Source: a virus
Reading direction: 5' to 3' (one strand)
Length of the DNA: 24,930 nucleotides
Virus record (IMG/VR): IMGVR_UViG_3300047998_000039
Coordinates: 1 to 24,930 of that record
Below the pieces are notes generated by a model. That model was not told the DNA's origin, made no database searches, and saw only the letters and a list, made by a program, of their open reading frames with translations. A program made the translations under genes and the position numbers. Below, piece by piece: positions 4,467-24,456 of the stretch (the stretch's first letter is position 1; each line of letters begins with the position of its first letter).

Positions 4467-7400
4467 ATGGGATTGGAATTAAAACGTAGGTCTAAACAAT
4501 TTTTAAAAAAGATACCAAATGCACGTGACATTGACGAGCAGGAGGCATTTGAGGTATTCGGTCTTCGAGAACTTCCATCATTTCTTGGGGAAGGTAAGAA
4601 CTCATTCAGAATCAGACCACAACTATCACGAGATATTATACCAAATACTAAGATTGAAATCGAAGTACTTGATTCTAACGGAAATCCTGTATATTGGGAA
4701 GTTCCTTCTTACAAGGATGATGATAAATCGCAAGTAATATCAATATGGGTATACAACGATAATAACGATAAGTATAATACGCCAGATGGTGTTTGTGAAA
4801 TAATACTCGTAGCATCTACGACTCGTGGTCCAATCCGTGGTACGTTAAAAGTAAATGTAGTAAAAAATAAACAATCTGCTTCTGATATAATTTTTGTAGA
4901 CTCACCACGTGGTAATGTATCCGCATCAGTCGAATCGTTTAACGAACTACCACAGGGTAATGGTGAGTTAACACGAACAACACAATCAGGTCAGTTCACT
5001 TATAAGAAATCTATATATGGTGATGATGTTTCGTTTGAAACATCGACTGCTATTATAAATGGTGAAATGATAAGTGGTAGTTTAGAATTAGACCTATCAT
5101 CAACTACATTATTTCCACGATTGGGTGGCAGTCAATCACAACCAACGAGTGTAACCGCAAGTATTACTGAGATTGTATCCAACAAAATATTTAGAGTATT
5201 ATTACCTATAACTGCGAGTGATAATAGAAGTGATGGTTCAATTCACACGTATGAGTATTCTAATGATACCATAACTGGTAATATAAAATATCTATCTACT
5301 GGGTCATTAAATACTACTCAAAATCAATCTGCAATTGCAAACGTTACATTAACCAATGTAAACCCAACGTTAGGTAGAGTTCATTCAGTATCCACGTTAA
5401 TAAAATCTCAAGGACTTCCTAATTCTGATTTTGAATTAATCGCAAATACAAGTGTGCCAAATGAAACTGACATTTCATACAAAATATCTATACCAACCGA
5501 ACAATTAAATGACCCCAAAACAATAAAGATTCAATTCTTAAATATTAATGGTGATGTATCATCTACTGAGGTTATTATAGAAGATGTTATATTCGAGGGT
5601 GGTAACGTATACATTGGTGGTAGTCAGTCATTAGTAACAGGCTCTATGTTTATATCCAATGCAATTGGTAGTGGTTTAGAGATAGGTGGGCATTCGAGTG
5701 GTTTTATGAAATCGGTTGGATATGAAGGACAAATATCAGCATCAGAAGGTAAGGGGCCCGGTGGGTTTATCATATACAGTGGTAGTAATGCATTACAAAT
5801 GGGCGCTGATGTCCTACAAGGTGTTGGTATGCAATTCGTTGGTGATAACGATGATAGACACCTTATATTTACAACGGCCAATGGTGGTATATTAGACGTT
5901 AAAACTGATAAGTTTTTTATTGGTACAACCAACACTCAATTTATAAGTGGGTCTGATTCTAATATAGAAATCAGTTCTTCACTATTTCACTTAGACCCCA
6001 AGAATGACCGATTGGTAATTGGTGCTGATGCTATTATAGAAGCAGACTTATCAGCAAACAATATTCGTACTCCTGCGACAATTGGTGGAGTACAATCTAC
6101 TGATTTAAATGCAAGTTCTTCTATAACTCAAGATGGATTCGCACGATTTGTATCTGCAAGTATTGCTGGATTTACTGTAAATACTGAAGAGATTAAATCA
6201 TCCGATGATTCACTTAGACTAAAGTCCAATGGTCAAATGACTGGTTCGGCAATTTTACTTGGAGATAAAGTTGGTGGTAACTTCGTACAATTCGCAGACT
6301 CCACACTAACAGTCCGAGGTGATTTAGCAGTTGACCAAATTACTACACCATCAACAATTGGCGGGTCACCCTCAAACCTAACCAATGCAAGTGCATCTAT
6401 TACGGCAGATGGATTTGCTAAGTTTGTATCTGCGTCTATTGGTGGGTGGGATATTACAACTGGTTCAATTGAAGGTAGTAACCTTATAATGAAACCAGCC
6501 GGTATATTACAAACACGAGACTTTGCAAGTGGTGTTAAGGGTTGGAAGATATCAAGTGAATTAAATGGGTATGCTGAATTTGAGAACGTAAAGATTAGAG
6601 GTACACTCGCAACTACCACATTCGAAAAAGAATCGGTAAATGCAGTTGGTGGTCAATTATACGTTGCAAACTCGACAACATTAAGTGGGTCGTTTAGCTC
6701 AAGTATAGACTCAGTGTCGTCCGCTGGTGTTACATCATCAACAACACTACCTACTCAGTTTGGTGACAATAGTACGGATAAGATTGAATTTCCGCTTAGT
6801 ACTCCATATCAATTAGTATCTGTTCAAGATTCCACAAAGTTTACTATTGATACACCAATCTTCGCAAATGGTGGTACTGCATATTTGTATTATAGTTCAA
6901 GTAACACATTTGGTTCACAAATATCAGCAAGTGAAGAAGTTACAGTAAGTACAACAACACCATATTCAGCATCGTTCCTAAATCGGAATCCTGTTAATAA
7001 TGGTGAGGGTAACTTTGAATACACTAACTTTGTTGTAAATACTCCTGGAAGTGGTCAGGAATCAGATTTTCTAAATATAATATGTACCATTACGGAAGTA
7101 AATGGGGCAAGTGTATTTAGTAATAGTAGTGATACAGCCACCGCAACGCTGACCTCTGTAGGCCCTCCAACTGAGATGACACTTTTAAGTGGGGTTACAT
7201 TTAATGGAACTTATGGTGGTCAAACTTTAGAATTCGCATTATCATTTACAGACTCTACGAGTGTAACTGAAGCCCAAGCAACTAATATTGTTCATAAGAA
7301 AGTTGGAACTTGGCCAACTTCAATTGTAGATGATGGGGAGATTACATTTGACGATGGTGGTGGTAGTCATACATTCGATATCCTCGAGCGTGTTAGTAAT

Positions 7401-9728
7401 ACACAACTAAGAATAGACACATCATCACATAAACCAAATACCAGCGCGTCGTTTGTAGCCGCATCTGGTAATTATTCACAATCATTATCCGATACAAGAA
7501 CTATAAGTGCTGGGACATTCACAACTACTGAATTTGTATATACTGATATATCACCAACTGCAAGTATATTTATCGCAGACAATGTAACTGGATTTGCTAA
7601 TGGTGAAATACTTACACTTAAAAAAGTAACTAATACTGGGTTTGCTACCGAGTATGTTAAAGTGGATTCAACTGAACGAAGAGATGGAGGTTCAGATTCA
7701 GACCTATCAGGATACTTAACAGTAACACGTTCTTACGGAAGTGGTACTACGGGTGACTCCAGCTCTCTTGGTGATATCGCATCCGTTGGCCAATCCTATG
7801 AAGAGGGTCAAGTGATTGTATCTACTGGTAAGATAGGTAGTGGTTACATACGACTAAACGCAAATCCAAATGACCCATCAACTCCATATATGGATATTGT
7901 TGAGAGAACTGGCAGTGGGTTATATGATATAGAATTAAAAGCAAGGTTGGGTGATTTAAGTGGATTGGCTAATAGTGACTTAGTTCACGGAAGGTCTAAT
8001 CCTGGCTTTGGTCTCGCAACGGATAACGTATATCTACAAGGTGGTATCATTGCAACCTTTGGTGAGATTGGTGGGTTTGGTATAAATGCAACTACGATTT
8101 CATCATCAAATAATAATCTTATTTTAAGAAGCAATGGTCAGATAACTGGATCTGCCGCATTATTAAGTGGTAGTGACGTTGTAATTGATGTAGAAGACTT
8201 TACTTTAAACTCAACAAACTTTAAAGTAAATAGTGCTGGTGATATTACCGGCTCTAATGTGTTATTCGATGGTGGTACTATCGGTGGATTTGAATTGGGG
8301 TCTAATATTATATCATCATCAAATGGTGACCTAATTCTAAAATCGAATGGTGAGATAACCGCATCAGCTGTTAAATTAGAGGGTGATATTACCGCAAACA
8401 CGGGTCGATTTGATGATGTTACAGTTGCAGGTATAATCGCACAAGACGACTCGGATGATTACATATTAGAATCTTGGATTACCTCGTCAACGTTTATTTC
8501 ATCATCTTACAACTATGGGGGGTCACTTGTTAACGCCGGTATTCTTGGAGAAACATTCAAACATGGTGTGCTTACATGGACTCTCGATAGTGGTTCTGAT
8601 GTTACGTATGATGTATTTATCGGACAAACCGTATCAGCTTCAAAATATGAAAAAGCAACACCACAAGATACCCAAGCAACTTCACCACCAACATTTAAAC
8701 GTTGGGCTGATATTAAAGGATTTGGAGGCGTCCATAGCATAGGTGTCCCATATGGGTATCCTAATGAATACGTAACACCATCTACTGTCGAGAATATAAT
8801 ATTTCCATTTCCAAACTACAACCCATCTGCTGCCGGTGATACTCATAATTTTTCGATAACAAGTAATACCATATCCCTACCATCCACTTTAATATCTGGA
8901 AATGTTTTAAATGGGTTAGTACTTCAAACTGCAGTTAGATTCGGACCATCCTTTGGTGGGTTTTCACCAACATTTAGAGTGGAAATATTAAAACCAGATA
9001 ATACAGTAGTTAAACAATTTGATATCGCATCGCGTAACGCGGGTGAGTGGTTACCAATATCACTCCCCTTGACTGATGCATTAATTAATGTGACGAGTAC
9101 GGCCGTAACCATTCAGGATGAACTTAAAATTAAACTATCATGGTTTAAACAATCACCTAATGCCGGTGGTGGTTCTATAAAAGAAATACGTATTGGGGAA
9201 CTTCGTATTGTTAAAGCAGCTGCATCCGAAGGATTATTCGTAAAAGGACTTCAGTTTGAACAATCTTCATTATTACCTACAAAATATGGAACCGCCCATC
9301 ATGGAAACTTCGTACCAGGTGAGGATAATACGTATGATTTAGGACAAATTGGTAATGTAGGTACTGGAACACCAAACCAACGATGGGACGATATTTATGC
9401 TACCAATGGTACTATTCAAACTTCCGATGAAACTCAAAAGACAAATATAACATCTTCGGATTTGGGATTATCATTTGTAAATGAGTTACGACCAGTTAGT
9501 TATAATTGGATAAACAAGACACGTACACATTACGGGTTGATTGCACAAGAAGTCAGTTCATCGTTAAATGTATTTAGTAAAACTACTTCTGATTTTGCCG
9601 GAATAACGACCGGGTCATTAATGGGATTACGATATAATGAACTTATCTCACCAATGATTAAAGCAATACAAGAACTTTCTGACGAAGTAAATCAACTAAA
9701 AATAGAGTTAAGTCAGAGTAGAGGATAA
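4467..9728 (+). CDS. Giant tail-fibre/spike-like protein with C-terminal S74 intramolecular chaperone
   Basis: A 1753-residue beta-rich protein, high in Ser, Thr, Gly and Asn, with few Cys. The last 101 residues form a Peptidase_S74 chaperone: the self-cleavage motif reads TSDETQK with Ser 1653 and Lys 1658, followed by RPVSYNWI and HYGLIAQEV. In this family the domain trimerises the fibre, then releases itself by cutting before that Ser. It is preceded by DNTYDLG...RWDDIYATNG, the usual lead-in to S74 domains. Internal duplications occur around residues 535-595 and 627-682 (TIGG...DGFA.FVSASI.G) and around 1199-1232 and 1269-1303 (GGF...ISSSN..LIL.SNG.I). The first about 150 residues look like a separate beta domain, perhaps for baseplate attachment. 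GGAG lies 9-12 bases before the ATG. Role in host attachment is inferred from S74 fibres; the receptor is unknown. It sits, unusually, straight after recombination genes. Confidence 0.8.
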   Translation: MGLELKRRSKQFLKKIPNARDIDEQEAFEVFGLRELPSFLGEGKNSFRIRPQLSRDIIPNTKIEIEVLDSNGNPVYWEVPSYKDDDKSQVISIWVYNDNNDKYNTPDGVCEIILVASTTRGPIRGTLKVNVVKNKQSASDIIFVDSPRGNVSASVESFNELPQGNGELTRTTQSGQFTYKKSIYGDDVSFETSTAIINGEMISGSLELDLSSTTLFPRLGGSQSQPTSVTASITEIVSNKIFRVLLPITASDNRSDGSIHTYEYSNDTITGNIKYLSTGSLNTTQNQSAIANVTLTNVNPTLGRVHSVSTLIKSQGLPNSDFELIANTSVPNETDISYKISIPTEQLNDPKTIKIQFLNINGDVSSTEVIIEDVIFEGGNVYIGGSQSLVTGSMFISNAIGSGLEIGGHSSGFMKSVGYEGQISASEGKGPGGFIIYSGSNALQMGADVLQGVGMQFVGDNDDRHLIFTTANGGILDVKTDKFFIGTTNTQFISGSDSNIEISSSLFHLDPKNDRLVIGADAIIEADLSANNIRTPATIGGVQSTDLNASSSITQDGFARFVSASIAGFTVNTEEIKSSDDSLRLKSNGQMTGSAILLGDKVGGNFVQFADSTLTVRGDLAVDQITTPSTIGGSPSNLTNASASITADGFAKFVSASIGGWDITTGSIEGSNLIMKPAGILQTRDFASGVKGWKISSELNGYAEFENVKIRGTLATTTFEKESVNAVGGQLYVANSTTLSGSFSSSIDSVSSAGVTSSTTLPTQFGDNSTDKIEFPLSTPYQLVSVQDSTKFTIDTPIFANGGTAYLYYSSSNTFGSQISASEEVTVSTTTPYSASFLNRNPVNNGEGNFEYTNFVVNTPGSGQESDFLNIICTITEVNGASVFSNSSDTATATLTSVGPPTEMTLLSGVTFNGTYGGQTLEFALSFTDSTSVTEAQATNIVHKKVGTWPTSIVDDGEITFDDGGGSHTFDILERVSNTQLRIDTSSHKPNTSASFVAASGNYSQSLSDTRTISAGTFTTTEFVYTDISPTASIFIADNVTGFANGEILTLKKVTNTGFATEYVKVDSTERRDGGSDSDLSGYLTVTRSYGSGTTGDSSSLGDIASVGQSYEEGQVIVSTGKIGSGYIRLNANPNDPSTPYMDIVERTGSGLYDIELKARLGDLSGLANSDLVHGRSNPGFGLATDNVYLQGGIIATFGEIGGFGINATTISSSNNNLILRSNGQITGSAALLSGSDVVIDVEDFTLNSTNFKVNSAGDITGSNVLFDGGTIGGFELGSNIISSSNGDLILKSNGEITASAVKLEGDITANTGRFDDVTVAGIIAQDDSDDYILESWITSSTFISSSYNYGGSLVNAGILGETFKHGVLTWTLDSGSDVTYDVFIGQTVSASKYEKATPQDTQATSPPTFKRWADIKGFGGVHSIGVPYGYPNEYVTPSTVENIIFPFPNYNPSAAGDTHNFSITSNTISLPSTLISGNVLNGLVLQTAVRFGPSFGGFSPTFRVEILKPDNTVVKQFDIASRNAGEWLPISLPLTDALINVTSTAVTIQDELKIKLSWFKQSPNAGGGSIKEIRIGELRIVKAAASEGLFVKGLQFEQSSLLPTKYGTAHHGNFVPGEDNTYDLGQIGNVGTGTPNQRWDDIYATNGTIQTSDETQKTNITSSDLGLSFVNELRPVSYNWINKTRTHYGLIAQEVSSSLNVFSKTTSDFAGITTGSLMGLRYNELISPMIKAIQELSDEVNQLKIELSQSRG
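6069..6252 (+). repeat. Fibre internal repeat A, copy 1
   Basis: Codons 535-595 of the fibre gene encode a block with TPATIGG, then DGFARFVSASIAGF, then LKSNGQMTGSA. The same order recurs about 275 bases downstream. This is a protein-level duplication typical of elongated trimeric fibres. Confidence 0.6.
6345..6513 (+). repeat. Fibre internal repeat A, copy 2
   Basis: Second block, codons 627-682: TPSTIGG, then DGFAKFVSASIGGW, then NLIMKPAG. Twelve of fourteen residues match copy 1 across DGFA..FVSASI.G-aromatic. Confidence 0.6.
8061..8163 (+). repeat. Fibre internal repeat B, copy 1
   Basis: Codons 1199-1232 encode GEIGGFGINATTISSSN followed by NLILRSNGQITGSA, a unit that recurs about 200 bases downstream and is related to the end of repeat A copy 1 (LKSNGQMTGSA). 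Confidence 0.6.
8271..8373 (+). repeat. Fibre internal repeat B, copy 2
   Basis: Codons 1269-1302 encode GGTIGGFELGSNIISSSN followed by DLILKSNGEITASA, matching repeat B copy 1 in order and spacing. Confidence 0.6.
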
Positions 9729-9736
9729 TTATTATT

Positions 9737-12025
9737 ATGGGAAAATTAATAAACGAATGGGTAACGGAATCAATCCTTACCGAAGACATTAAAAAAACAG
9801 TGGTAACTTACGTAGGTAGGTTTCACCCATTCCATTCTGGTCATAACGCTACATACCAACATTTGGTAAAAAAGTTTGGTAAAGATAATGTATACATTGG
9901 TACATCCGATAAAGTACAATTACCAAAGTCACCATTTACTTTCAAAGAAAAGGTTCAGATAATGACCACTATGTTTGGGATTCCCAAAAATAAAATAGTA
10001 AAGGTAAAGAACCCATATTCTCCAAAAGAAATACTACAATCATTTTCAGAAGAGACTACTGCATTTATCACAGTAGTTGGTGAGAAGGACAAGAGTAGAT
10101 TGGGTGGTAAATACTTTGAACCATATAAGGGTAAGGTAGAAAAGGGTTATGCTGATGCTGGTTATGTTTATGTAGCCCCATCACAAGGAAACGGAATATC
10201 TGGTACTCAAGTTCGTAAAGGTATGTCTGACTCAGATGAGAAATCTCGTACTAAGTTTTTCAAGTCAGTATACCCAAAGTTCAACCAAAAAATTTATGAT
10301 TTAGTTTCATCTCGTTTAATAAAAGTAGAATCCGTAATGGAATCGTTCTTACAAACATTTGATATTAACGAAATGTTATCCGAAGCTTCATCATTACCAC
10401 CAAGTGGTAAGGGTATAGTAGATGATGGTCCGGGCGCTTTCTATGGTAATATGAAAACTTTTAAGAAAGAGATGGAAGATGTGACTTCTACATTAGGGTG
10501 GGAAATTATATCATATCTAATGGATGATGATTCCATGGAGTCATTTGATACATCATACCCTAACGGTCCTGGTAGATATCCGGTATCATTTTTTCCAAGC
10601 GGTGATACCATGGATGGTCAGAAAAAGAGATATGGTAAGGATGTAACCGGCCGACCGGGATATAGAAAGTGGGCTAAACATATTAAGAAAGTTGCCCTTC
10701 GTTTGGGTATGGAATTCGTTAAGTTTGCTGAACCAAAGGATATTCAAAATCTTACTTCTAAAATTGATACTGAAAAAACCAAAGATAAAAAAAATAATCT
10801 GAAAGAAAGTATTCTTAATGAAGGTGGTGCATATGGTCATATGAATCACCCATTCGATACTGAGTTGGGATTGACCTTTGGTGATTTAAGAATAATCATA
10901 GATGGTGCACTTAATGGTAAGTTAGAGTTCACACGAGAAAAGACCGATGGACAAGCACTTGCTATTTCATATAGAAAAGATAAAGGTATCATCGCTGCAA
11001 GAAATAAATCACACCTAAAGGATAGTGGTGCTGGTGCATTAGACATTAAAGGAGTTTCAGATAAGTTTGCTAATAGAGGTGGATTGACCGATGCGTATAA
11101 TTTCGCAATGAGAGATTTGAGTAATGCAATCTCAAAACTATCAGATGCACAAAAAGAGAAAGTCTTCAAGAATGGTTCAAAATTTATGAACATTGAAGTC
11201 ATCTGGCCGGAGTCAGTAAACGTAGTACCATATGGTCAACCCCTATTAGTATTCCACGGAACAATGGAGTATGATGAGAATGGTGTCGCTATCGGAGCAG
11301 ATACCTCAGACGCAAGAATACTTGCCGGTATGATTAAACAAGTAAACGCTGAGGTTCAAAGTCAATACACTATTCAAGGACCGCCCGTTGTAAAACTACC
11401 TAAGAGTCAAGAACTATCTAAAATGAAATCAAAATTCTTTAGTCAATTGTCAAAGGTGCAAAAAGAGTTCAAACTCAAGGATACTGATGGTGTTGCTGAA
11501 TACCACCAAAGATGGTGGGAAGAATACGTTGATAAGAACTCACCATCCTCTTTGGATAACAAAACTAAAATGGGATTGGTAAAGAGATGGGCATTCTACG
11601 ATAAAGGATTCCGATTGGATAAGAAAAACATTACCGACTCTAAAACATTAGATTGGGCTAAGAAGACTGACAAACAAGACCAAGCTAAGATAGCAAAAGA
11701 AAATACACGTAAGTTTGAAGATATCTTCTTAGGTGTAGGTGCAGAAGTATTATCATTTATGTCATCAGCACTTACTGTAAATCCAGACAAAGCACTTAGA
11801 GATATGCAGAAACGATTGGACACTACAATCAAAGATGTTAGAAAAAGTGGTGACCCTAAAAAGATTGCTAAACTAAAGATGGAATTAGAAAGATTAAACG
11901 CAGTTGGTGGTAGAGATAAGATTGTACCAAACGAAGGACTTGTATTCGCTTATAAAGGATATACAATGAAGTTAACTGGTACATTTGCATCACTAAACCA
12001 AATCTTAGGTTTAATGTATTTCTAA
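9737..12025 (+). CDS. Adenylyl/cytidylyltransferase (HxGH) fused to an ATP-dependent ligase-type nucleotidyltransferase
   Basis: This 762-residue protein has three parts. Residues 20-200 form an HxGH nucleotidyltransferase: YVGRFHPFHSGH with H33 and H36, and ISGTQVRKG with T157 and R160, as in NMN adenylyltransferases and cytidylyltransferases. Residues 217-356 are unrecognised. Residues 363-762 look like the covalent nucleotidyltransferase core of DNA/RNA ligases: motif I EKTDG with Lys 402, FMNIE with Glu 487, EGLVF with Glu 733, and KLTG with Lys 745. The parts are separated by MLSE-A (216/217) and ILNE-G (362/363), which look like T4 gp21 cleavage sites. The N-terminus, MGKLINEW...TESILTED, resembles a capsid-targeting peptide. 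It may therefore be cut in the prohead into an NAD- or nucleotide-forming enzyme and a ligase. Substrates cannot be told from sequence. GAGG lies 12 bases before the ATG. Confidence 0.75.
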   Translation: MGKLINEWVTESILTEDIKKTVVTYVGRFHPFHSGHNATYQHLVKKFGKDNVYIGTSDKVQLPKSPFTFKEKVQIMTTMFGIPKNKIVKVKNPYSPKEILQSFSEETTAFITVVGEKDKSRLGGKYFEPYKGKVEKGYADAGYVYVAPSQGNGISGTQVRKGMSDSDEKSRTKFFKSVYPKFNQKIYDLVSSRLIKVESVMESFLQTFDINEMLSEASSLPPSGKGIVDDGPGAFYGNMKTFKKEMEDVTSTLGWEIISYLMDDDSMESFDTSYPNGPGRYPVSFFPSGDTMDGQKKRYGKDVTGRPGYRKWAKHIKKVALRLGMEFVKFAEPKDIQNLTSKIDTEKTKDKKNNLKESILNEGGAYGHMNHPFDTELGLTFGDLRIIIDGALNGKLEFTREKTDGQALAISYRKDKGIIAARNKSHLKDSGAGALDIKGVSDKFANRGGLTDAYNFAMRDLSNAISKLSDAQKEKVFKNGSKFMNIEVIWPESVNVVPYGQPLLVFHGTMEYDENGVAIGADTSDARILAGMIKQVNAEVQSQYTIQGPPVVKLPKSQELSKMKSKFFSQLSKVQKEFKLKDTDGVAEYHQRWWEEYVDKNSPSSLDNKTKMGLVKRWAFYDKGFRLDKKNITDSKTLDWAKKTDKQDQAKIAKENTRKFEDIFLGVGAEVLSFMSSALTVNPDKALRDMQKRLDTTIKDVRKSGDPKKIAKLKMELERLNAVGGRDKIVPNEGLVFAYKGYTMKLTGTFASLNQILGLMYF

Positions 12026-13356: not shown

Positions 13357-15597
13357 ATGAATACTAAGCTAAATAAATCAGTTAAAAAGTTTTTAGATGA
13401 TTATCTAAAAGATGAGAAAAAGAATTCGCCAGAACATCACGAATCGGTTATGCTGATTATGAGAGGCGCCTTAACTGATGCTAACTTTCATAGTGAAGCA
13501 AAGCAATTAGGTAAATACTTTCCAAAAGCAGGTAAGAAATTCATTGGTACACCAATGGAAGATGTAATTGAAAGTAAGGGTATTGCTATTGCTAAAGCTG
13601 CAAAGTACGATGGTCACGATATAATTGACGCATTTGCATTTTATCTAAGTATGTCAATTGGTGGGTCTTTCGGAAATAGATTGATGTCACTAAAAGAATC
13701 ACTCGAAGAATCATTGGTGATTGAGGGTGAAAGACTTGATGAAAAGAATTGCCCTACTGATGCATCAAAGTGGTCTTACTACAAATCACAAGCAAAGAAG
13801 AAGTTTGATGTATACCCATCAGCATACGCAAACGGATGGGCATCTAAACAATACAAAGCCGCAGGTGGTGGTTGGAAACAATGTGCTGGTGAATCGGTAG
13901 AGGAATCAGTTGATGAGAACTTTGCAGTCCATATGGCAGTAGCAAAGGCAATTGCTGACCAAAAGGTAAAGAATCCTCAAACTAAGAAGGATGTTAAAGC
14001 AACAACTGCATTGAAAGATAAAAAACATCCTGCTCATAAACAAGCAAAATCACTTCTTCAAAGATTGAAAGATAAATTCTCTAAGAAAGAGAGTATTGAT
14101 GAAAAGATGATTACTCCACAAAGAGGACACAACTACTATCAGTTATATAGAGATACTCCAATCAAATATGTATCAGGTCACTCAGGAATTGGATTGAAAG
14201 TTCCTGGTGTATTACTTCATAACGAATATGATACAATCAAAGGTAAGGAGGGTGCTTATATCATAGATTACTTTGGCGCACATTTCTATGTGGATATGAA
14301 AAACAAATTTGCATCAAGAATTGCACATCCAGATAATAGAGAGCAGAACAAAGATTTGAGAAAAAATATGGGTCGTACTGCACTCGCACCTGAACACAAA
14401 GATTGGAAGAAATATATGAACGAATCAGTAAATGAAGCTGGAGTAAATGTTTGGTATTTTTACAAAAAAGCTAACAAAGATAAGAATAAATTTTTTAAGA
14501 TGTTATCTGATTTTCGTAAAAAGCATAGTGATACTGAATGGATAAAGATGTTAAATTATGCTCTTGAGGATTTTAATGAAAACCCAACGAAGTATAAAAC
14601 AATTGATGATAAGCAAAATATATTGTTTAAAAATCTTCAAACCAATAAAAAGGCATACGAATCAGTAAATGAAGGTTATGGTGAATTCATTAAAGCTAAA
14701 AATCTTACTGATATCATTAAATTATCAAAGCAAAAGAAAAACGCAACATTCTATGTAACTGATGATAACAATTCTCGTATTGGTGCATTTTATTTAAAGA
14801 ATGGTAAGTTTGCTAAAGCAACTACTGCAAACCCTAGCTATGATTTACAAAATAACAAAACTAAGTTAAGAGATAGAAGTGATGTAATCTACAAGTATAA
14901 AGTAGACGAATCAGTAAACGAAGCTAAGGATAAAGTATTTGTAGTGATGTTTAAGGACAAAAAAGATTTACCTAACAAAAATATAAAACCATCATCAGCT
15001 GTATATGCAAAAGAAGCTGATGCTAAGAAATTCTTAAAATCGGTTGAGAAAGATGGTGCTAAGGGTATGATTGTAAAATCTAACAAACCCGTTGGTGTAA
15101 AGGTAAATGAGTCTACAACAAGAACTGCAATGGAAATTGGTGGTTTGACTGGCATGAATAAAGATGCTATCCAAAAGTTTGTTGATGATAACAACTTAGA
15201 CATTGAAAAAGTATACCAATTCGTTAAGAAAGGTAAACTTGCTGATAGAATGAAGTTAGTATCTGCAATCGCAGGTAAACCTAATAATCCAGTTCAAAAG
15301 AAAATGGTTAAACAATTCGGTGAAGGTATCATTAGAGAAGCAAAAGTAAGATTGGGTAAAGACTCGGTAAACTTTAAAGTGATGGGTGATTCAAAAGGAT
15401 TGACTCTAATCGCTGCAAGTGGTAATGACTTAGATGGTCTCCAAGGTGCAGTTGAAAATGATGTCGATGTGAAAGAAGAATTGAGAAAGACACTTGAGAA
15501 ACAACTTAAAGTTCCAGTTGAAGTGGATAGAGATTACGATGGTGCTGGTTTTAGATTCAACATTGACTTTTACTCATTAGCTAAAAAGGTAAAATAA
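13357..15597 (+). CDS. Nine-module polyprotein with ESVNE-type linkers (predicted capsid-internal cargo)
   Basis: A 746-residue protein made of unrelated small domains: 1-112, 131-178, 188-244, 250-355, 361-434, 440-517, 523-584, 586-655 and 662-746. Between them lie short Glu-rich linkers: 113-130 (including LVIE-G at 123), ESVEESVDE (179-187), ESIDE (245-249), ESVNE-A (356-360), ESVNE-G (435-439), ESVNE-A (518-522), NES (584-586) and EGIIRE-A (656-661). Most end in hydrophobic-x-Glu followed by a small residue, the context cut by T4 gp21. Module 2 has KKKFDVYPSAYANGW with flanking C132 and C177, module 8 an all-helical KFVDDNNLDIEKV fold, and module 9 an alpha/beta unit starting VRLGKDSVNFKV. 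No catalytic motif is visible. There is no signal or membrane segment. AAGGAG precedes the ATG by four bases, the clearest Shine-Dalgarno site in this region. Processing and packaging are inferred; the modular layout is directly visible. Confidence 0.75.
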   Translation: MNTKLNKSVKKFLDDYLKDEKKNSPEHHESVMLIMRGALTDANFHSEAKQLGKYFPKAGKKFIGTPMEDVIESKGIAIAKAAKYDGHDIIDAFAFYLSMSIGGSFGNRLMSLKESLEESLVIEGERLDEKNCPTDASKWSYYKSQAKKKFDVYPSAYANGWASKQYKAAGGGWKQCAGESVEESVDENFAVHMAVAKAIADQKVKNPQTKKDVKATTALKDKKHPAHKQAKSLLQRLKDKFSKKESIDEKMITPQRGHNYYQLYRDTPIKYVSGHSGIGLKVPGVLLHNEYDTIKGKEGAYIIDYFGAHFYVDMKNKFASRIAHPDNREQNKDLRKNMGRTALAPEHKDWKKYMNESVNEAGVNVWYFYKKANKDKNKFFKMLSDFRKKHSDTEWIKMLNYALEDFNENPTKYKTIDDKQNILFKNLQTNKKAYESVNEGYGEFIKAKNLTDIIKLSKQKKNATFYVTDDNNSRIGAFYLKNGKFAKATTANPSYDLQNNKTKLRDRSDVIYKYKVDESVNEAKDKVFVVMFKDKKDLPNKNIKPSSAVYAKEADAKKFLKSVEKDGAKGMIVKSNKPVGVKVNESTTRTAMEIGGLTGMNKDAIQKFVDDNNLDIEKVYQFVKKGKLADRMKLVSAIAGKPNNPVQKKMVKQFGEGIIREAKVRLGKDSVNFKVMGDSKGLTLIAASGNDLDGLQGAVENDVDVKEELRKTLEKQLKVPVEVDRDYDGAGFRFNIDFYSLAKKVK
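14422..14437 (+). repeat. ESVNE linker DNA repeat, copy 1
   Basis: GAATCAGTAAATGAAG encodes the linker at residues 356-360 of the nine-module protein. Five sites in two genes carry this 16-mer with only a T/C change at base 12. Confidence 0.85.
14659..14674 (+). repeat. ESVNE linker DNA repeat, copy 2
   Basis: Identical to copy 1 over all 16 bases; encodes residues 435-439, followed by Gly. Confidence 0.85.
14908..14923 (+). repeat. ESVNE linker DNA repeat, copy 3
   Basis: GAATCAGTAAACGAAG, one synonymous change from copies 1 and 2; encodes residues 518-522, followed by Ala. Confidence 0.85.
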
Positions 15598-17517: not shown

Positions 17518-19092
17518 ATGCCAAAAGATGTAAAAAGTCTCATACGAGAAGAGTGGGTCAAATGTGCTAAAGACCCAACATATTTCTTCAAGAAGTATTG
17601 TTATATCCAACACCCCCACCGCGGAAAGATTCTATTTAACCTATATCCATTCCAAGAGGACTTGATGGATAACGTTAGTAATAATCGTTTCAATGTAATT
17701 CTCAAATCACGTCAGTTAGGTATTTCAACAATGTCAGCCGGATATTCATTATGGTTGATGTTATTTCACGAAGATAAAAACATATTGGTAATTGCAACTA
17801 AACAAGAAGTTGCAAAGAACCTCGTTACCAAGGTAAGGTTTATGCATGACAACTTACCATCTTGGTTAAAGGGTCAGACTGAAGAAGATAACAAACTATC
17901 CTTACGATTACGAAATGGTTCTCAAATTAAAGCAACATCTGCCGCAGGTGATGCTGGTCGTTCCGAGGCATTGTCGATGTTGATTATTGATGAGGCTGCA
18001 TTTATTAATAATGTAGAAGAGATTTGGACTTCGGCGCAATCGACACTTTCTACTGGTGGTGGCGCAATTGTATTATCTACTCCGAATGGTGTTGGTAATT
18101 GGTTTCATAAAATATGGGTACAAGCACAACAAGGTGACCAGTGGTTTCCAACGGAACTACATTGGACAGTCCATCCTGAAAGAAATCAAACTTGGAGAGA
18201 TGAACAAGAAACATTATTAGGAACTAAGGGAGCAGCACAAGAATGTGATTGTGACTTTATTAGTTCTGGTCATACGGTAGTAGAGGGTTCTACTCTACAA
18301 TGGTATGAAGAAACTTATGTAAAAGACCCAATAGAAAAACGTGGGTTTGATGGTAATTACTGGTTATGGGATTATCCAAATTATTCTCGTGATTATGTAG
18401 TGGTGGCTGATGTAGCAAGAGGTGACTCATCAGATTATTCAGCATTCCATGTATTTGATGTAGAGACTGTTGAACAAGTTGCAGAATACAAAGGTAAGAT
18501 TGATACCAAACAATATGGTGCAATGTTAACCTCAATAGCATCGGAATGGAACAACGCAATGTTGGTGATTGAAAACGCAAATATTGGCTGGGCTGTAATC
18601 CAAGAAGTAATTGATAGAAACTATGATAACTTATATTACTCATATAGGGATGTAGGTTATATTGATGAGGATATCCATTTAAGAAAAGGATTCGACCTTA
18701 AACGTAAAGAGGATATGGTGCCAGGTTTCTCAATGACCTCAAGAACACGACCATTGGTAATTTCAAAGTTAGATATGTATATGAGAGAGAGAACTCCTAT
18801 AATACATTCTAAGCGACTCATAGAAGAATTGTTTGTATTCATATGGAATGGTAGTAGAGCTGAGGCACAACGTGGTTATAATGACGATTTAGTGATATCA
18901 TTCTCTACTGGTCTTTGGGTACGTGATACGGCACTGAAATTAAGACAACAAGGTATTGATTTAACAAGAACTACATTAGGTCATATTGGCAAGTCAAGTA
19001 CTGGTGTATATTCTAATAGAAGTATAGGACAAGACCCTTGGAAACAAAAAGACCAACATGGAAATGATAACGATTTAACTTGGTTATTATAA
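17518..19092 (+). CDS. Terminase large subunit (T4 gp17-like ATPase-nuclease)
   Basis: A 524-residue packaging motor. The N-terminal ATPase follows T4 gp17: the Walker A region is LKSRQLGIST at 62-71, where T4 has SRQLGKTT, so the usual Walker Lys is Ile 69 here. Walker B is LIIDEAAF with D158 and E159; coupling motif STPNGVGNWF follows. The C-terminal RNase H-like nuclease starts with VVVADVARGDSSDYSAF, with D298 equivalent to the first catalytic Asp of T4 gp17. The protein docks on the portal, pumps DNA into the prohead and cuts it. Lys 63 just upstream, or the Arg in SRQ, may stand in for the missing Lys. T4 gp17 is longer (610), mainly at its termini. Next gene but for a 74-base gap is the portal, the standard partner. 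Confidence 0.95.
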   Translation: MPKDVKSLIREEWVKCAKDPTYFFKKYCYIQHPHRGKILFNLYPFQEDLMDNVSNNRFNVILKSRQLGISTMSAGYSLWLMLFHEDKNILVIATKQEVAKNLVTKVRFMHDNLPSWLKGQTEEDNKLSLRLRNGSQIKATSAAGDAGRSEALSMLIIDEAAFINNVEEIWTSAQSTLSTGGGAIVLSTPNGVGNWFHKIWVQAQQGDQWFPTELHWTVHPERNQTWRDEQETLLGTKGAAQECDCDFISSGHTVVEGSTLQWYEETYVKDPIEKRGFDGNYWLWDYPNYSRDYVVVADVARGDSSDYSAFHVFDVETVEQVAEYKGKIDTKQYGAMLTSIASEWNNAMLVIENANIGWAVIQEVIDRNYDNLYYSYRDVGYIDEDIHLRKGFDLKRKEDMVPGFSMTSRTRPLVISKLDMYMRERTPIIHSKRLIEELFVFIWNGSRAEAQRGYNDDLVISFSTGLWVRDTALKLRQQGIDLTRTTLGHIGKSSTGVYSNRSIGQDPWKQKDQHGNDNDLTWLL

Positions 19093-19166: not shown

Positions 19167-21014
19167 ATGGCAAATAAATCATTATTTAATAGGCTAAACA
19201 AACTATTCAACACACAAGTTGTTGTACGTAGGATTGGCAAGGGTAAAACTCAGACAATCGATACTCAGAGATTACAATCTCAAGGTAACCTACGTAGTTC
19301 ATCTTATTATGATAGATTTGGTAGACTACATACCTCTCGTAAAAATTGGGAGACGTACAATAACCAATTTAATTTCCATTCAAATAAATTAGAACTATAT
19401 ACCGACTATGAAGCAATGGATAAAGATTCCATTCTAAATTCAGTATTAGATATTTACGCAGATGAATGTACACTCAAAAATGATATGGGTGATGTTCTAA
19501 GAATAAAAACCGCAGATGAGGATATTAAAAATATTCTTCATAATTTGTTTTACGATGTAATGAATATTGAGTTCAATCTATGGGCATGGATTCGTGGTAT
19601 GAGTAAGTATGGTGACTATTACTTACATCTTGATATTGAAGAAGGTATTGGTATTGTGAACGTATCACCAATGTCAGCATATGAAGTAGAACGAGAAGAG
19701 GGATTTAATCCTGAAAATCCATATGAAGTAAGATTTAAGTTGGGTTCTATGGGTACTGCTCATGGAGCAAGTGTAAACAAGAACGCAGATTACTTCCAAT
19801 TTTATCAGATTGCACATTTCCGTTTGATGGCAGATACAAACTTCCTTCCTTATGGTCGTTCGTTATTAGAAGGTGCAAGAAAGACTTGGAAGCAGTTGAC
19901 TCTTATGGAAGACGCTATGATGATTCATAGAATTATGAGAGCACCTGAAAGACGTACATTTAAAATTGACGTAGGTAACATTCCACCTGGTGAAGTTGAT
20001 AACCACATGAGAGGTATCATCGACCAAATGAAGAAAGTACCATATCTTGACCAAAATACTGGTGATTACAATCTCAAGTTTAATCTAATGAATATGTTAG
20101 ATGACTACTACCTGCCAGTTCGTGGTGGTCAAAGTGGTACTGAGATAGATACATTAAGTGGTATGGAGTTCGGTGGTATTGATGATATCGAATACCTAAG
20201 AAATAGAATGATGGCTGCACTAAAAGTACCAAAAGCATTTGTTGGGTATGATGAAGCAGTTGAGGGTAAAGCAACTCTTGCACAGGAGGATATTAGATTC
20301 GCACGTTCAGTTGAGAGAATCCAAAAGATTGTCCTTTCTGAATTAACCAAGATTGCAATCGTTCACTTGTATTCACAAGGTTATGAAAATGAAGACCTCG
20401 TTAACTTTGAGTTGGAACTTACAAACCCATCTATCATATACGAACAAGAGAAAGCAAACCTTTGGTCTGAAAAAGTATCATTGGTATCTGATATGAAAGA
20501 CCTCAAAATGGTTTCTCAAGAGTGGATGTATAAAAATATATTCAATATGTCTGAAGAGGAGTTTGAACATGAAAAGCATGGTGTTATCAAAGACCTTAAA
20601 CTTGGATTCAGACATGAACAACTCCAACAAGAAGGTAATGACCCATTTAAAACTGGTGAGTCATTTGGTACACCACACGATTTAGCATCGATGCACCAAA
20701 CGTCTGATAAGGGTGGTTCACCTGAGGGTGGGTTTGATGGGGCAGGTCGACCATCTAAGTCGGGTAACTACAAAACTGATGACAGTACATTTGGTAGAGA
20801 CCCACTTGGTCAGAAAACCGATATCAAACCAGCCGCAACATATCATAAATATAAAAACTCCCCACTTGCATATGAGCAAACGGAGGCTTTGAAATCATCT
20901 TTAAAAAACGTTAAACGTAAGACAAATACGATTCTAAATGAGTCATTGTCAGAAGACGAAAAGACTGAATCAGGTTTATTAGACGAGAGAAATCTAATAG
21001 ACGACACGATTTGA
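19167..21014 (+). CDS. Portal protein (T4 gp20-like)
   Basis: A 615-residue protein with T4 gp20 hallmarks: SVLDIYADECT, GDYYLHLD, LPYGRSLLEGARK, LMEDAMMIHRIMRAPERRTF..DVGNIPP, EIDTLSGMEF and MMAALKVPKAF, the last in the clip/stem and crown order seen in T4. Twelve copies form the vertex ring through which DNA enters. Compared with T4 (524) it has a long polar C-terminal extension from about 500, rich in Gly, Asp, Lys and Ser. That extension contains ILNE-S at 589-593, a site like those cut by gp21, followed by 23 acidic residues, so the end may be trimmed at maturation; this is inference. The ATG has only a weak AGAGA upstream. It opens the head operon with the core proteins, protease and scaffold candidate downstream. 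Confidence 0.93.
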   Translation: MANKSLFNRLNKLFNTQVVVRRIGKGKTQTIDTQRLQSQGNLRSSSYYDRFGRLHTSRKNWETYNNQFNFHSNKLELYTDYEAMDKDSILNSVLDIYADECTLKNDMGDVLRIKTADEDIKNILHNLFYDVMNIEFNLWAWIRGMSKYGDYYLHLDIEEGIGIVNVSPMSAYEVEREEGFNPENPYEVRFKLGSMGTAHGASVNKNADYFQFYQIAHFRLMADTNFLPYGRSLLEGARKTWKQLTLMEDAMMIHRIMRAPERRTFKIDVGNIPPGEVDNHMRGIIDQMKKVPYLDQNTGDYNLKFNLMNMLDDYYLPVRGGQSGTEIDTLSGMEFGGIDDIEYLRNRMMAALKVPKAFVGYDEAVEGKATLAQEDIRFARSVERIQKIVLSELTKIAIVHLYSQGYENEDLVNFELELTNPSIIYEQEKANLWSEKVSLVSDMKDLKMVSQEWMYKNIFNMSEEEFEHEKHGVIKDLKLGFRHEQLQQEGNDPFKTGESFGTPHDLASMHQTSDKGGSPEGGFDGAGRPSKSGNYKTDDSTFGRDPLGQKTDIKPAATYHKYKNSPLAYEQTEALKSSLKNVKRKTNTILNESLSEDEKTESGLLDERNLIDDTI

Positions 21015-22433: not shown

Positions 22434-22574
22434 ATGTCGTGTGGGTGTAACAATAATAAAATAAACGAAGAACTCGAAGTACAAGACCTCGAAGATATCA
22501 GATTGATGATACGTAGAGAGCTTGCAAGAGTTTTCTTTGATTTATATCGTAAGAAAAAAGTGTGGGAAAAGTAA
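22434..22574 (+). CDS. Tiny Cys-containing protein in the head operon (46 aa)
   Basis: A 46-codon frame, MSCGCNNNKINEEL then a charged helix with RLMIRRELARVFFDLYRKKKVWEK, starts one base after the previous stop and ends one base before the protease ATG. Such exact packing between genes supports it being real. The C-G-C start could bind a metal or be exposed. A helix DIRLMIRRELARVFFDLYRKK is amphipathic. No function known. There is only a weak ribosome-binding site, so it may depend on translational coupling. Confidence 0.6.
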   Translation: MSCGCNNNKINEELEVQDLEDIRLMIRRELARVFFDLYRKKKVWEK

Positions 22575-22575
22575 G

Positions 22576-23214
22576 ATGAAACAACTACTTGTAGATACAA
22601 TGATATTTGAAGTAACACCTACGATGTTACAAGAAGCAAAGCAACAACACGGTCGATTCTTAGTAAATGGTGTGTTACAACGTGCTGATGCTAAAAACCA
22701 AAATGGTAGAGTGTATCCACGTAACATCTTAGAACGTGAAGTAAAGAAATATCAAGGACGTGAAATCAAAGAGAATCGTGCTTATGGTGAATTAGACCAT
22801 CCTGAAAGTGGTGTGGTAGAATTAAAGAATACATCACACATTGTAAGAGACGTTTCTTGGAATGGTGACGATGTTGTAGGTACAGTTGAGATACTCAACA
22901 CACCAGCTGGTAAAATCTTACAAGAACTCATCAAAGCAGATTGTACTGTTGGTATCTCGTCAAGAGGTATGGGTTCAGTAAAACAAATAGGTGAAGATAC
23001 AGTAGCGGTAGAACAAGACTTTGATTTGATATGTTGGGACTTTGTTTCTAACCCATCAACTCATGGAGCATTTTTGTCACCAACAAATGAGGGTGTAATC
23101 AACGAATCGATTACCACAAAAAATAATACTTATAAATACGATAAAGCCAATAATATGATGAGAGACATTATGTGTGAAGTTGGTGGATATTGTGAATGTG
23201 ACTTTGGAGTTTAA
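22576..23214 (+). CDS. Prohead maturation protease (T4 gp21-like serine protease)
   Basis: A 212-residue protease; the ATG at 22576 is chosen because it gives the T4-like length (T4 gp21 is 212) and follows the previous stop by one base, although the frame is open upstream. Blocks shared with T4 gp21 are NQNGRVYPRNILEREVKKY, AYGELDHPES with catalytic His 75, and VGISSRGMGS with the catalytic Ser in S128-S129. In T4 it assembles inside the prohead core, activates itself, then cuts core, capsid and internal proteins after Glu in L/I-x-E or L/I-x-x-E sites. VINE-S at 174-178 near the C-terminus may be a self-cleavage site. The C-terminal end carries Cys 200, 206 and 208, unlike T4. It provides the enzyme that the linker sites described in this window would need. 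Confidence 0.92.
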   Translation: MKQLLVDTMIFEVTPTMLQEAKQQHGRFLVNGVLQRADAKNQNGRVYPRNILEREVKKYQGREIKENRAYGELDHPESGVVELKNTSHIVRDVSWNGDDVVGTVEILNTPAGKILQELIKADCTVGISSRGMGSVKQIGEDTVAVEQDFDLICWDFVSNPSTHGAFLSPTNEGVINESITTKNNTYKYDKANNMMRDIMCEVGGYCECDFGV

Positions 23215-23217
23215 ATT

Positions 23218-24456
23218 ATGAAATTAAAAAACATATTAAATGAATCATCATATGGCCGTGGGCCTAAAATTGGTGAAGAAAAAGAAAAGGGAATGACTAA
23301 CGAAGAAAAACGTGAATTCCTTAAAGCTGTTTCTGAATACAAGAAATTCGGTGAGTCAATCTACCGTTCAGGTAATTTGGCAGAAGTATACGAATCTATT
23401 AAAGGTATCGTAGAGACTGCACACAAGGTAACTCTTGAAGAAACTGGTGATTGGTTTGACAAAGTAACTGTTGGTAGACACATGAAGTCTATGAACGAAT
23501 CATTCAAAGTATTCTCTAACACTATCAAGGAAGTAAACACTCTACAACAAAGACTTGAGTCTTGTTATGATGAGATGGGTGAAGTTCTTGGTAAATACTA
23601 CGAAATCAAAGAAGGTAATGAGTTCGGTGCTGCAAGAGCAAAAGCAATTGCTAAAGGTGATGATGAGTTCGAAGTAGATGGTAAGAAGTTCCCAGTCAAA
23701 GATGTTGATAAGGATGACAAAGAGAATGCTAAGAAGTTTGCTAAAGAATCAGTAAACGAAGGTAAATTTGATAGAGATGTTGAAAGATTGTACGATGCAA
23801 AGGAGTTCGATAGATTTATCAAAAAACATAAATCTAAGTTTGATAAAAAAGACTACAAAGAACTCTTAGATTACGCAAAGTCGTTTAATTACGAAGAGAA
23901 GGATTTTGAAAGTGAAGATTTCGATGACCCATTCGATGAACAAAATGCTGAAATGCAATTAGATACTTCTCGTGAGGATTTGAAAGACCTTATATTGAAA
24001 ACATTGAAAGAATCAGTAAACGAAGAATCGTCAATGAAACTAACTGATATACTAAGTGAAAACAAATACTCAATAATAGACCCAAAGGGAAACCAAAAGG
24101 GTATTGGTACTAAAGACCAAGCAAATAAACTACAAAAGAAATTAGGTGGTTCTAAAAAAGGATACTTTGTAGTTGCTGCTAAATCGGCATTGAAAGCCAG
24201 AAGAGCAATGGAAAAGTATCAGTTTGATTTTAAAAACCCTAAACTTCAAGATAAGATGTCTGACCTTTACTTTGAATCAGTAACCGAAGATATTATTGGA
24301 GAAGGTGCTTCTAGCGAAGAAAAAAGAATTGTGATGTTGGCAGTTCGTAAAATATCAAAATATCGTCAAGTACCAATTAATATATCAGTTGTAGATGTAT
24401 TAAGAGCTGCAGAAGAGTTGGAAAGAGATATCAAAAAAGGTAAGGTTAAGAAATAA
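23218..24456 (+). CDS. Modular prohead core/scaffold candidate with ESVNE linkers
   Basis: A 412-residue protein in the place of T4 gene 22 (scaffold), right after the protease. The N-terminus MKLKNILNE-S resembles a capsid-targeting peptide. Residues 25-130 form a helical domain (GESIYRSGNLAEVYESI, ETGDWFDKVTVGRHMKSMNE, LQQRLESCYDEMG); 133-176 a short unit DEFEVDGKKFPVKDV; then ESVNE-G (177-181), a charged helical domain to 264, ESVNE-E (265-269), and a second targeting-like stretch MKLTDILSE-N at 273-281. Residues 283-358 are paralogous to 53-128 of the 317-residue protein and end in ESVTE (353-357). A last helical module runs 363-412. It may be scaffold, cargo or both; no plain similarity to gp22 was recognised. 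GGAG lies 9-12 bases before the ATG. Confidence 0.7.
   Translation: MKLKNILNESSYGRGPKIGEEKEKGMTNEEKREFLKAVSEYKKFGESIYRSGNLAEVYESIKGIVETAHKVTLEETGDWFDKVTVGRHMKSMNESFKVFSNTIKEVNTLQQRLESCYDEMGEVLGKYYEIKEGNEFGAARAKAIAKGDDEFEVDGKKFPVKDVDKDDKENAKKFAKESVNEGKFDRDVERLYDAKEFDRFIKKHKSKFDKKDYKELLDYAKSFNYEEKDFESEDFDDPFDEQNAEMQLDTSREDLKDLILKTLKESVNEESSMKLTDILSENKYSIIDPKGNQKGIGTKDQANKLQKKLGGSKKGYFVVAAKSALKARRAMEKYQFDFKNPKLQDKMSDLYFESVTEDIIGEGASSEEKRIVMLAVRKISKYRQVPINISVVDVLRAAEELERDIKKGKVKK
23746..23761 (+). repeat. ESVNE linker DNA repeat, copy 4
   Basis: GAATCAGTAAACGAAG, identical to copy 3 at 14908 nearly 9 kb away; encodes residues 177-181 of the 412-residue protein. Confidence 0.85.
24010..24025 (+). 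repeat. ESVNE linker DNA repeat, copy 5
   Basis: Identical to copies 3 and 4. A sixth, slightly diverged version, GAATCAGTAACCGAAG, lies at 24274-24289 and encodes ESVTE. Confidence 0.85.

Follow-up and report, generated by a model that had tools for sequence, protein, structure and literature searches.

Several described systems come close to the protein analyzed here, namely, packaged polyvalent proteins, the packaged proteins of phage T4, the DUF6267-cytidyltransferase unit represented by PHROG 455, and the NMN adenylyltransferase (NMNAT)-like proteins of cyanophage virions. In T4, packaged proteins carry a capsid-targeting sequence (CTS), and the head protease gp21 cleaves after L/I-X-E (PMC9026906). 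NMNAT-like proteins have been detected in virions of S-SZBM1 (S-SZBM1_140; PMC9146016), S-SCSM1 (PMC9602691), S-CREM2 and, as cited there, S-CBWM1 (PMC10665884), with the authors pointing to possible carry-over in CsCl preparations (PMC9602691, PMC10665884). Every phage bearing NadM in a published survey also has NadV (PMC9503650), and phage systems for RNA end repair have been described as well (PMC9503650, PMC7824862).

The window discussed below is the whole 24,930-nt stretch of IMG/VR record IMGVR_UViG_3300047998_000039 (positions 1 to 24,930). It carries a T4-like head module with genes for the terminase, the portal, and a gp21-type protease. The ORF at 9737-12025 probably, though by no means assuredly, codes for a packaged, protease-cut polyprotein of a T4-like phage that includes a new ligase-like family and acts early in RNA repair or NAD supply.

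Domain layout of the 762-residue protein

The first-pass annotation read this ORF as an HxGH nucleotidyltransferase, a middle domain of no known type, and a KxDG domain in one chain. That layout is confirmed, and the motifs lie as follows (a hyphen marks the predicted cut).

9737..12025, + strand: whole polyprotein ORF, a single open frame of 762 aa with an ATG start
9737..9784, + strand: N-terminal leader, residues 1-16 (MGKLINEWVTESILTE-D), with sites after E11 and E16, similar to the T4 capsid-targeting sequence
9785..10339, + strand: HxGH nucleotidyltransferase domain of the NMN-adenylyltransferase type, residues 17-201 (PF01467, PHROG 395/3041, PDB profile)
9833..9844, + strand: HSGH motif, residues 33-36 (H33, G35, and H36 invariant in the nucleotidyltransferase alignment)
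10196..10216, + strand: ISGTQVR motif, residues 154-160 (S155, G156, T157, and R160 invariant)
10340..10384, + strand: linker with paired sites VME202-S and LSE216-A, recognized from the site count
10385..10822, + strand: central domain, residues 217-362 (146 aa), with terminal sites LKE357-S and LNE362-G; no Pfam or PHROG match
10823..12022, + strand: ligase-like KxDG nucleotidyltransferase domain, residues 363-762 (motifs, AlphaFold, Foldseek, and the upstream [L/I]xE)
10940..10951, + strand: motif I, KTDG, residues 402-405 (K, D, and G invariant), with K402 as the predicted nucleotide-accepting lysine
11189..11200, + strand: motif III, NIEV, with E487 (invariant; aligned to E159 of T4 Rnl1)
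11933..11938, + strand: motif IV, EG, residues 733-734 (invariant)
11969..11980, + strand: motif V, KLTG, with K745 (K, T, and G invariant)

Several unrelated enzyme domains thus share one chain near virion genes, as is characteristic of polyvalent proteins. The central domain, which gave no match in the Pfam and PHROG searches, has a DDG[PA] signature that is present in 82 of the 168 relatives.

The nucleotidyltransferase (NTase) domain scores above the Pfam cut-off for CTP_transf_like (PF01467; E = 1.2e-4) and matches PHROG 395 (E = 1.6e-14) as well as PHROG 3041. When a 27-sequence profile of this domain was compared with the PDB, all 11 matches were NMN adenylyltransferases (best E = 5e-8), and the domain carries the GRFxPxHxGH and SGTxxR motifs that, together with such a profile match, distinguish these enzymes. 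Assignment to the NMN-adenylyltransferase type, first suggested by the signature motifs, is therefore supported at the level of sequence. An identity as a glycerol-phosphate cytidylyltransferase was also considered and was dropped, all profile matches being NMNATs. NadV, the source of NMN, was sought in 12 large relatives and was absent, which means that these phages do not encode NAD salvage in full.

The KxDG domain (residues 363-762) gave no match in sequence searches of Pfam, PHROGs, and the PDB, including no Pfam match to the profile of the T4 Rnl1 family (PF09511). Nevertheless, a set of 58 diverse relatives shows no variation at K402, D404, G405, R422, E487, E733, G734, and K745, and EK[TL]DG is found in 164 of 168 relatives, the other four being cut off or split ahead of the motif. 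Motifs I, III (E), IV (EG), and V (K) follow each other in the order that marks the ligase superfamily. An AlphaFold model of the domain based on a 57-sequence alignment reached a pLDDT of 86.5 and a pTM of 0.82; an earlier model from 34 sequences (pTM of 0.66) had no clear fold match, a shortcoming that the more diverse alignment fixed. In a Foldseek comparison with 350,542 PDB chains, ranks 1 to 28 were all occupied by ligases, mostly RNA ligases, with probabilities of up to 0.94. The top ligases included the Palaeococcus and other archaeal Rnl3-type RNA ligases, the fungal tRNA ligase, AsfvLIG, T4 Rnl1, T4 Rnl2, and the Naegleria ligase. No match fell below an E value of 0.001, and TM-scores were ∼0.2, probably because ∼200 mostly helical residues separate motifs III and IV. 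The case for a ligase nucleotidyltransferase fold in residues 363-762, drawn from the predicted structure, is strong but not conclusive. Alignment by hhalign placed KTDG on K99-x-D-G of T4 Rnl1 and NIEV (E487) on NFEY (E159), with an E value of 0.05 and a score of 22.7 against a column-shuffled decoy maximum of 22.3; since the comparisons with T4 Rnl1 and Rnl2 were not significant against shuffled decoys, only the motif register was used. The chain ends 14 residues past the KLTG of motif V, leaving no room for an OB domain, so that its build differs from that of DNA ligases and capping enzymes.

Inteins favor active sites. At one locus (L048:3576-7080), a split intein interrupts the polyprotein gene between the K and the T of KTDG (Hint, E = 4e-8; C-terminal intein part, E = 3e-5), and the position of the intein exactly in this motif provides independent support for a ligase-like active site. 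Between the intein-split halves lies a stand-alone ORF (5163-5903; DUF7487), as in “fractured genes.” Two of the checks named in the first-pass annotation, the predicted fold of residues 363-762 and the retention of the HxGH and KxDG residues in homologs, came out in its favor: ligases rank first for the predicted fold, and neither motif has been lost.

Cleavage-type sites, head genes, and interchangeable cargo

The following genes of the window bear on how the protein would be packaged and processed.

13357..15597, + strand: second probable multisite packaged protein, 746 aa, with eleven [LIV]xE[AGSD] sites
17518..19092, + strand: terminase large subunit of the head module (Pfam Terminase_6N, T4likevirus type; PHROG 2)
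19167..21014, + strand: portal protein of the head module (PHROG 213, E = 2e-68)
22522..23214, + strand: prohead protease of the gp21 type, the predicted processing enzyme (Peptidase_S77, E = 4e-30; PHROG 207, E = 3e-51)

The gp21-like sites originally noticed between the domains (MLSE-A at residues 213-217 and ILNE-G at residues 359-363 of the 762-aa protein) are present and exceed the shuffle expectation, and the leader sites after residues 11 and 16, missed earlier, can be added to them. In total, six [LIV]xE-[AGSD] sites were found (11/16, 202/216, and 357/362), two per junction and none within the domains, versus 2.3 in composition-preserving shuffles (P = 0.03 for the number alone). Among 38 nonredundant relatives, the sites observed versus those expected from shuffles were 0 versus 0.36 in the NTase core, 0.26 versus 1.33 in the ligase-like domain, and 5.7 versus 2.6 in the linker plus cargo. 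Directly before GGAYGHM, [LIVMF]xE ends 101 of the 105 distinct ten-residue contexts, the window's ILNE-G included, which is given as a count and not as a probability because the relatives are not statistically independent. Nearly all these contexts have L or I at position -3, whereas positions -5 and beyond vary; the four contexts without the E are LLLM (twice), LLLC (once), and that of locus L159. The [L/I]xE is thus kept before the KxDG domain although the upstream domain is swapped between relatives, and [LIM]xE is found near the N terminus, before the NTase domain, in 36 of 37 distinct leaders. An S77 protease is encoded in 17 of the 20 records carrying a relative. Sites of the L/I-x-E type at the leader and the junctions, combined with an encoded S77 protease, make up the sequence pattern of gp21-processed packaged proteins, and the head protease of the phage probably cuts the window protein into an NMNAT-type enzyme, a small domain, and a ligase-like enzyme.

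In six loci (L188, L194, L202, L219, L244, and L245), LLLM-GG replaces LxE-GG before the ligase-like domain, following a conserved NGKELLLM, and this subgroup may have lost the cut or shifted it elsewhere. In L163 (1194-4823), a ROS/MUCR-like and HNH-like stretch, possibly a mobile element inserted at the junction, interrupts the polyprotein and ends in LLLC-GG.

The 13357-15597 ORF has 11 sites versus 2.1 in shuffles, a number reached in none of 500 shuffles, and its sequence looks like that of a second packaged polyprotein made up of small unknown domains. Many of its sites have the form ES-V-N-E[AG]. The 412-aa ORF adjoining the protease gene (23218-24456) begins with MKLKNILNES and has seven cleavage-type sites (P = 0.004); its product is perhaps a prohead core or scaffold protein. 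The 4467-9728 ORF codes for a 1,753-aa fiber-like protein with a C-terminal endosialidase-type chaperone (Peptidase_S74, E = 2e-11).

Searches with one protein query and with profile queries yielded ∼160 further loci, and no fewer than 581 stretches of IMG/VR matched. Relatives are about 640 to 1,846 aa long, and most of the full-length ones contain both the NTase and the KxDG domains, while the part between or before them varies. Cargo recognized by Pfam includes a PolyA_pol/CCA-type nucleotidyltransferase (PF01743, E values down to 5e-31), HD and AAA_33/zeta-like P-loop kinase domains (PF01966 and PF13671), and a Zn_protease-type domain (PF05618); HExVH metallopeptidase and ParB-like domains were recognized by motif only. 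The window protein has its small central domain instead of CCA, HD, or kinase modules, and in three loci (L041, L161, and L164) the KxDG domain stands alone after a short leader. The cargo region of L232 (1450-5058) contains a retropepsin-like module (Zn_protease, PF05618) and a Pol-beta-type nucleotidyltransferase module. Among the 12 large relatives, a CCA-type domain was found in 2, at the polyprotein's own coordinates, and an RNA-ligase Pfam domain only in the Microcystis phage. Among named isolates, Microcystis phage Mel-JY01 alone was found to carry the fused protein. A search of genome contigs gave a single match, in a Pelagibacteraceae MAG, which is probably a phage contig.

The cyanophage pair and candidate functions

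In S-CAM9, the cytidyltransferase is preceded by a 400-aa protein with KWDG, EGFV, and KLVD that corresponds to Pfam DUF6267 (E = 9e-140), and PHROG 455 holds DUF6267 and the cytidyltransferase within one 764-position profile. The two are neighbors in S-CAM9, S-CAM1, S-RIM44, S-PM2, S-H9-2, S-RIM14, S-SSM4, and S-SZBM1. In S-PM2 (L319, 2492-4271), a frame change splits DUF6267, the C-terminal part of which shares its frame with the annotated cytidyltransferase and runs into it. An HxGH partner was not seen in the fetched stretches of HTVC008M, S-SSM7, and EniLVp02. The window domain has no match to DUF6267 (PF19782) above the Pfam cut-off, and profile comparison by hhalign gave a borderline score of 27.0 (maximum of 23.6 for shuffled and 24.9 for reversed profiles). 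We propose, with that borderline standing, that DUF6267 belongs to the same ligase-like family as the window domain. A DUF6267 protein is matched in 465 phage records, and the literature searched yielded no mention of DUF6267. The virion-detected S-SZBM1_140 begins with MRFRQFIIE-A, a leader of the T4 internal-protein type.

The mechanism that we propose builds on domain identities, motif conservation, site placement, the protease, genome context, and the relatives' cargo, all supported by sequence comparison and structure prediction. The 16-residue leader would target the polyprotein to the prohead core, and, as the head matures, the gp21-type protease of the same window would cut after L/I-x-E at the three paired junctions. 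The cuts would free the NMNAT-type adenylyltransferase, the small central domain, and a divergent member of the ATP-dependent RNA-ligase superfamily of nucleotidyltransferases, and these pieces would exit the head together with the DNA and be at work ahead of all phage gene expression. Leader-directed packaging, S77 cleavage, and joint ejection of protein and DNA are modeled on T4 and cyanophage homologs; for the window protein, we infer cleavage and injection as well as catalytic activities and substrates. The ligase-like domain is predicted to adenylylate K402 and to seal host or phage RNA cut by host anticodon nucleases or similar defenses, and the NMNAT-type enzyme could sustain the NAD(+) level or supply another adenylylated product. 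Relatives would widen the kit by CCA-type nucleotidyltransferase, HD, P-loop kinase, or metallopeptidase modules. Immediate RNA repair and supply of an adenylylated cofactor, serving as counter-defense, appear to be the most likely role, as RNA end repair would be expected to involve partners such as the CCA, HD, and kinase modules found in relatives, although the window protein itself does not have these modules, which counts against this reading; NAD supply by the NTase domain is the less secure part, given the absence of NadV from the 12 large relatives. In the packaged kit for NAD synthesis and sealing that was first imagined for this locus, the packaging gained support from the CTS-like leader, the S77 protease, and a homolog in virions. 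Synthesis of a capped nucleotide by the window protein was dropped, nothing in the analysis pointing to such a product. A much broader reading is offered tentatively, as a possibility that falls somewhat short of even: an ocean- and lake-wide family of T4-like phages would carry in the head a protease-released kit with a constant NMNAT-type enzyme and a new family of RNA ligases, DUF6267 among them, combined with swappable RNA-repair or counter-defense modules, so that tRNA could be mended before phage expression.

The main rival to RNA repair is DNA nick sealing, with the protein packaged and cut likewise and the ligase-like domain closing nicks in the injected phage DNA before replication. 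The DNA ligase AsfvLIG is among the top structural matches with the highest probabilities (0.94), and no ATP- or NAD-type DNA-ligase Pfam domain was found in the 12 large relatives, so this could be the phage's only ligase. However, most of the top 28 Foldseek matches are RNA ligases, the chain stops short of the OB fold needed for nick binding by DNA ligases, and the CCA-type nucleotidyltransferase, HD, and P-loop kinase cargo of relatives suits RNA repair better; we consider nick sealing unlikely. It is also conceivable, if quite improbable, that the two enzymes act on small molecules, proteins, or RNA ends and not in strand sealing, with NAD as the product of the NMNAT and a host target receiving AMP from the KxDG enzyme (for example, by end capping or AMPylation), so as to reprogram the host. 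The persistent pairing of NMNAT-type and KxDG-type enzymes, fused or separate, suggests linked chemistry, and T4 Alt is a precedent for a packaged NAD-using enzyme (PMC9026906), but the window protein has no ART or NAD-using domain, and the usual reaction of the ligase superfamily is strand joining. Finally, an unpackaged, late-expressed metabolic fusion, in which L/I-x-E would reflect linker composition and the cyanophage virion detection would be carry-over, is in line with the caveat in the virion papers and with the E- and L-rich linkers of these phages but is very improbable given that sites are enriched in linkers and depleted in domains relative to composition-preserving shuffles, that [L/I]xE is fixed while neighboring residues vary, and that the leader is CTS-like with an S77 protease encoded within the same module.

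Comparison with known systems

Packaging followed by early RNA repair, the preferred reading, would give a possible function to an unnamed protein family in hundreds of marine phage genomes and a reason for the recurrence of NMNAT-like enzymes in cyanophage virions. It predicts exact new N termini at residues 17, 217, and 363 and, if the ligase is active, would make RNA repair a virion-delivered, and not only an expressed, counter-defense. The first-pass annotation knew of no description of the pairing of these activities with maturation sites, which, within the literature searched, holds for the cut architecture and the ligase identity but not for polyvalent proteins, PHROG 455, and virion NMNATs, which were already known. 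What appears to be new is the ligase-superfamily assignment, the protease-cut layout with its statistics, the modularity of the cargo, and the connection with the paired cyanophage genes. No description of the ligase-like identity or of the protease-cut architecture was found in the literature searched, with an earlier mention in the RNA-repair literature being possible.

Among NMN adenylyltransferases, the archaeal NMNAT and the phage NadM (PMC9503650) share GRFxPxHxGH and SGTxxR with the window NTase, whose best PDB matches belong to this group; unlike those systems, the window NTase has no Nudix or kinase partner, and NadV was absent from the 12 large relatives. T4 RNA ligase 1 and the archaeal Rnl3 have in common with the window domain the KxDG, the motif III E, the EG, the K, and the fold matches, whereas the latter has no significant sequence match to them, has ∼200 residues, mostly helical, separating motif III from motif IV, and has no C-terminal domain after motif V. 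The DUF6267 proteins of Kyanoviridae (PF19782, PHROG 455) are, like the window domain, ∼400 aa long, with KWDG, EG(F/Y)V, and K-L in the same order and with similar spacings (KxDG to EG, 331 in the window domain versus 319 in DUF6267; EG to K, 12 in both). Both adjoin or are fused with a cytidyltransferase or NTase, but the order is ligase-NTase in the DUF6267 cyanophages and NTase-ligase in the window protein.

Polyvalent proteins (Iyer et al. 2017, PMC5512222) resemble the window protein in being large, multidomain, encoded near late genes, and thought to enter with the DNA, and they also swap enzyme domains (metallopeptidase, ParB-like, and Pol-beta types). In the text available from that source, the ligases mentioned are separate phage RNA ligases and not domains of polyvalent proteins, and processing there relies on embedded peptidases, in contrast to the separate prohead protease acting at L/I-x-E that is predicted here. 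The T4 internal proteins and Alt (PMC9026906) share with the window protein an N-terminal targeting leader, L/I-x-E sites for an S77 protease, and delivery with the DNA, which for the window protein is a prediction. These T4 proteins are trimmed at their termini, whereas the sites of the window protein separate two enzymes and a third domain.
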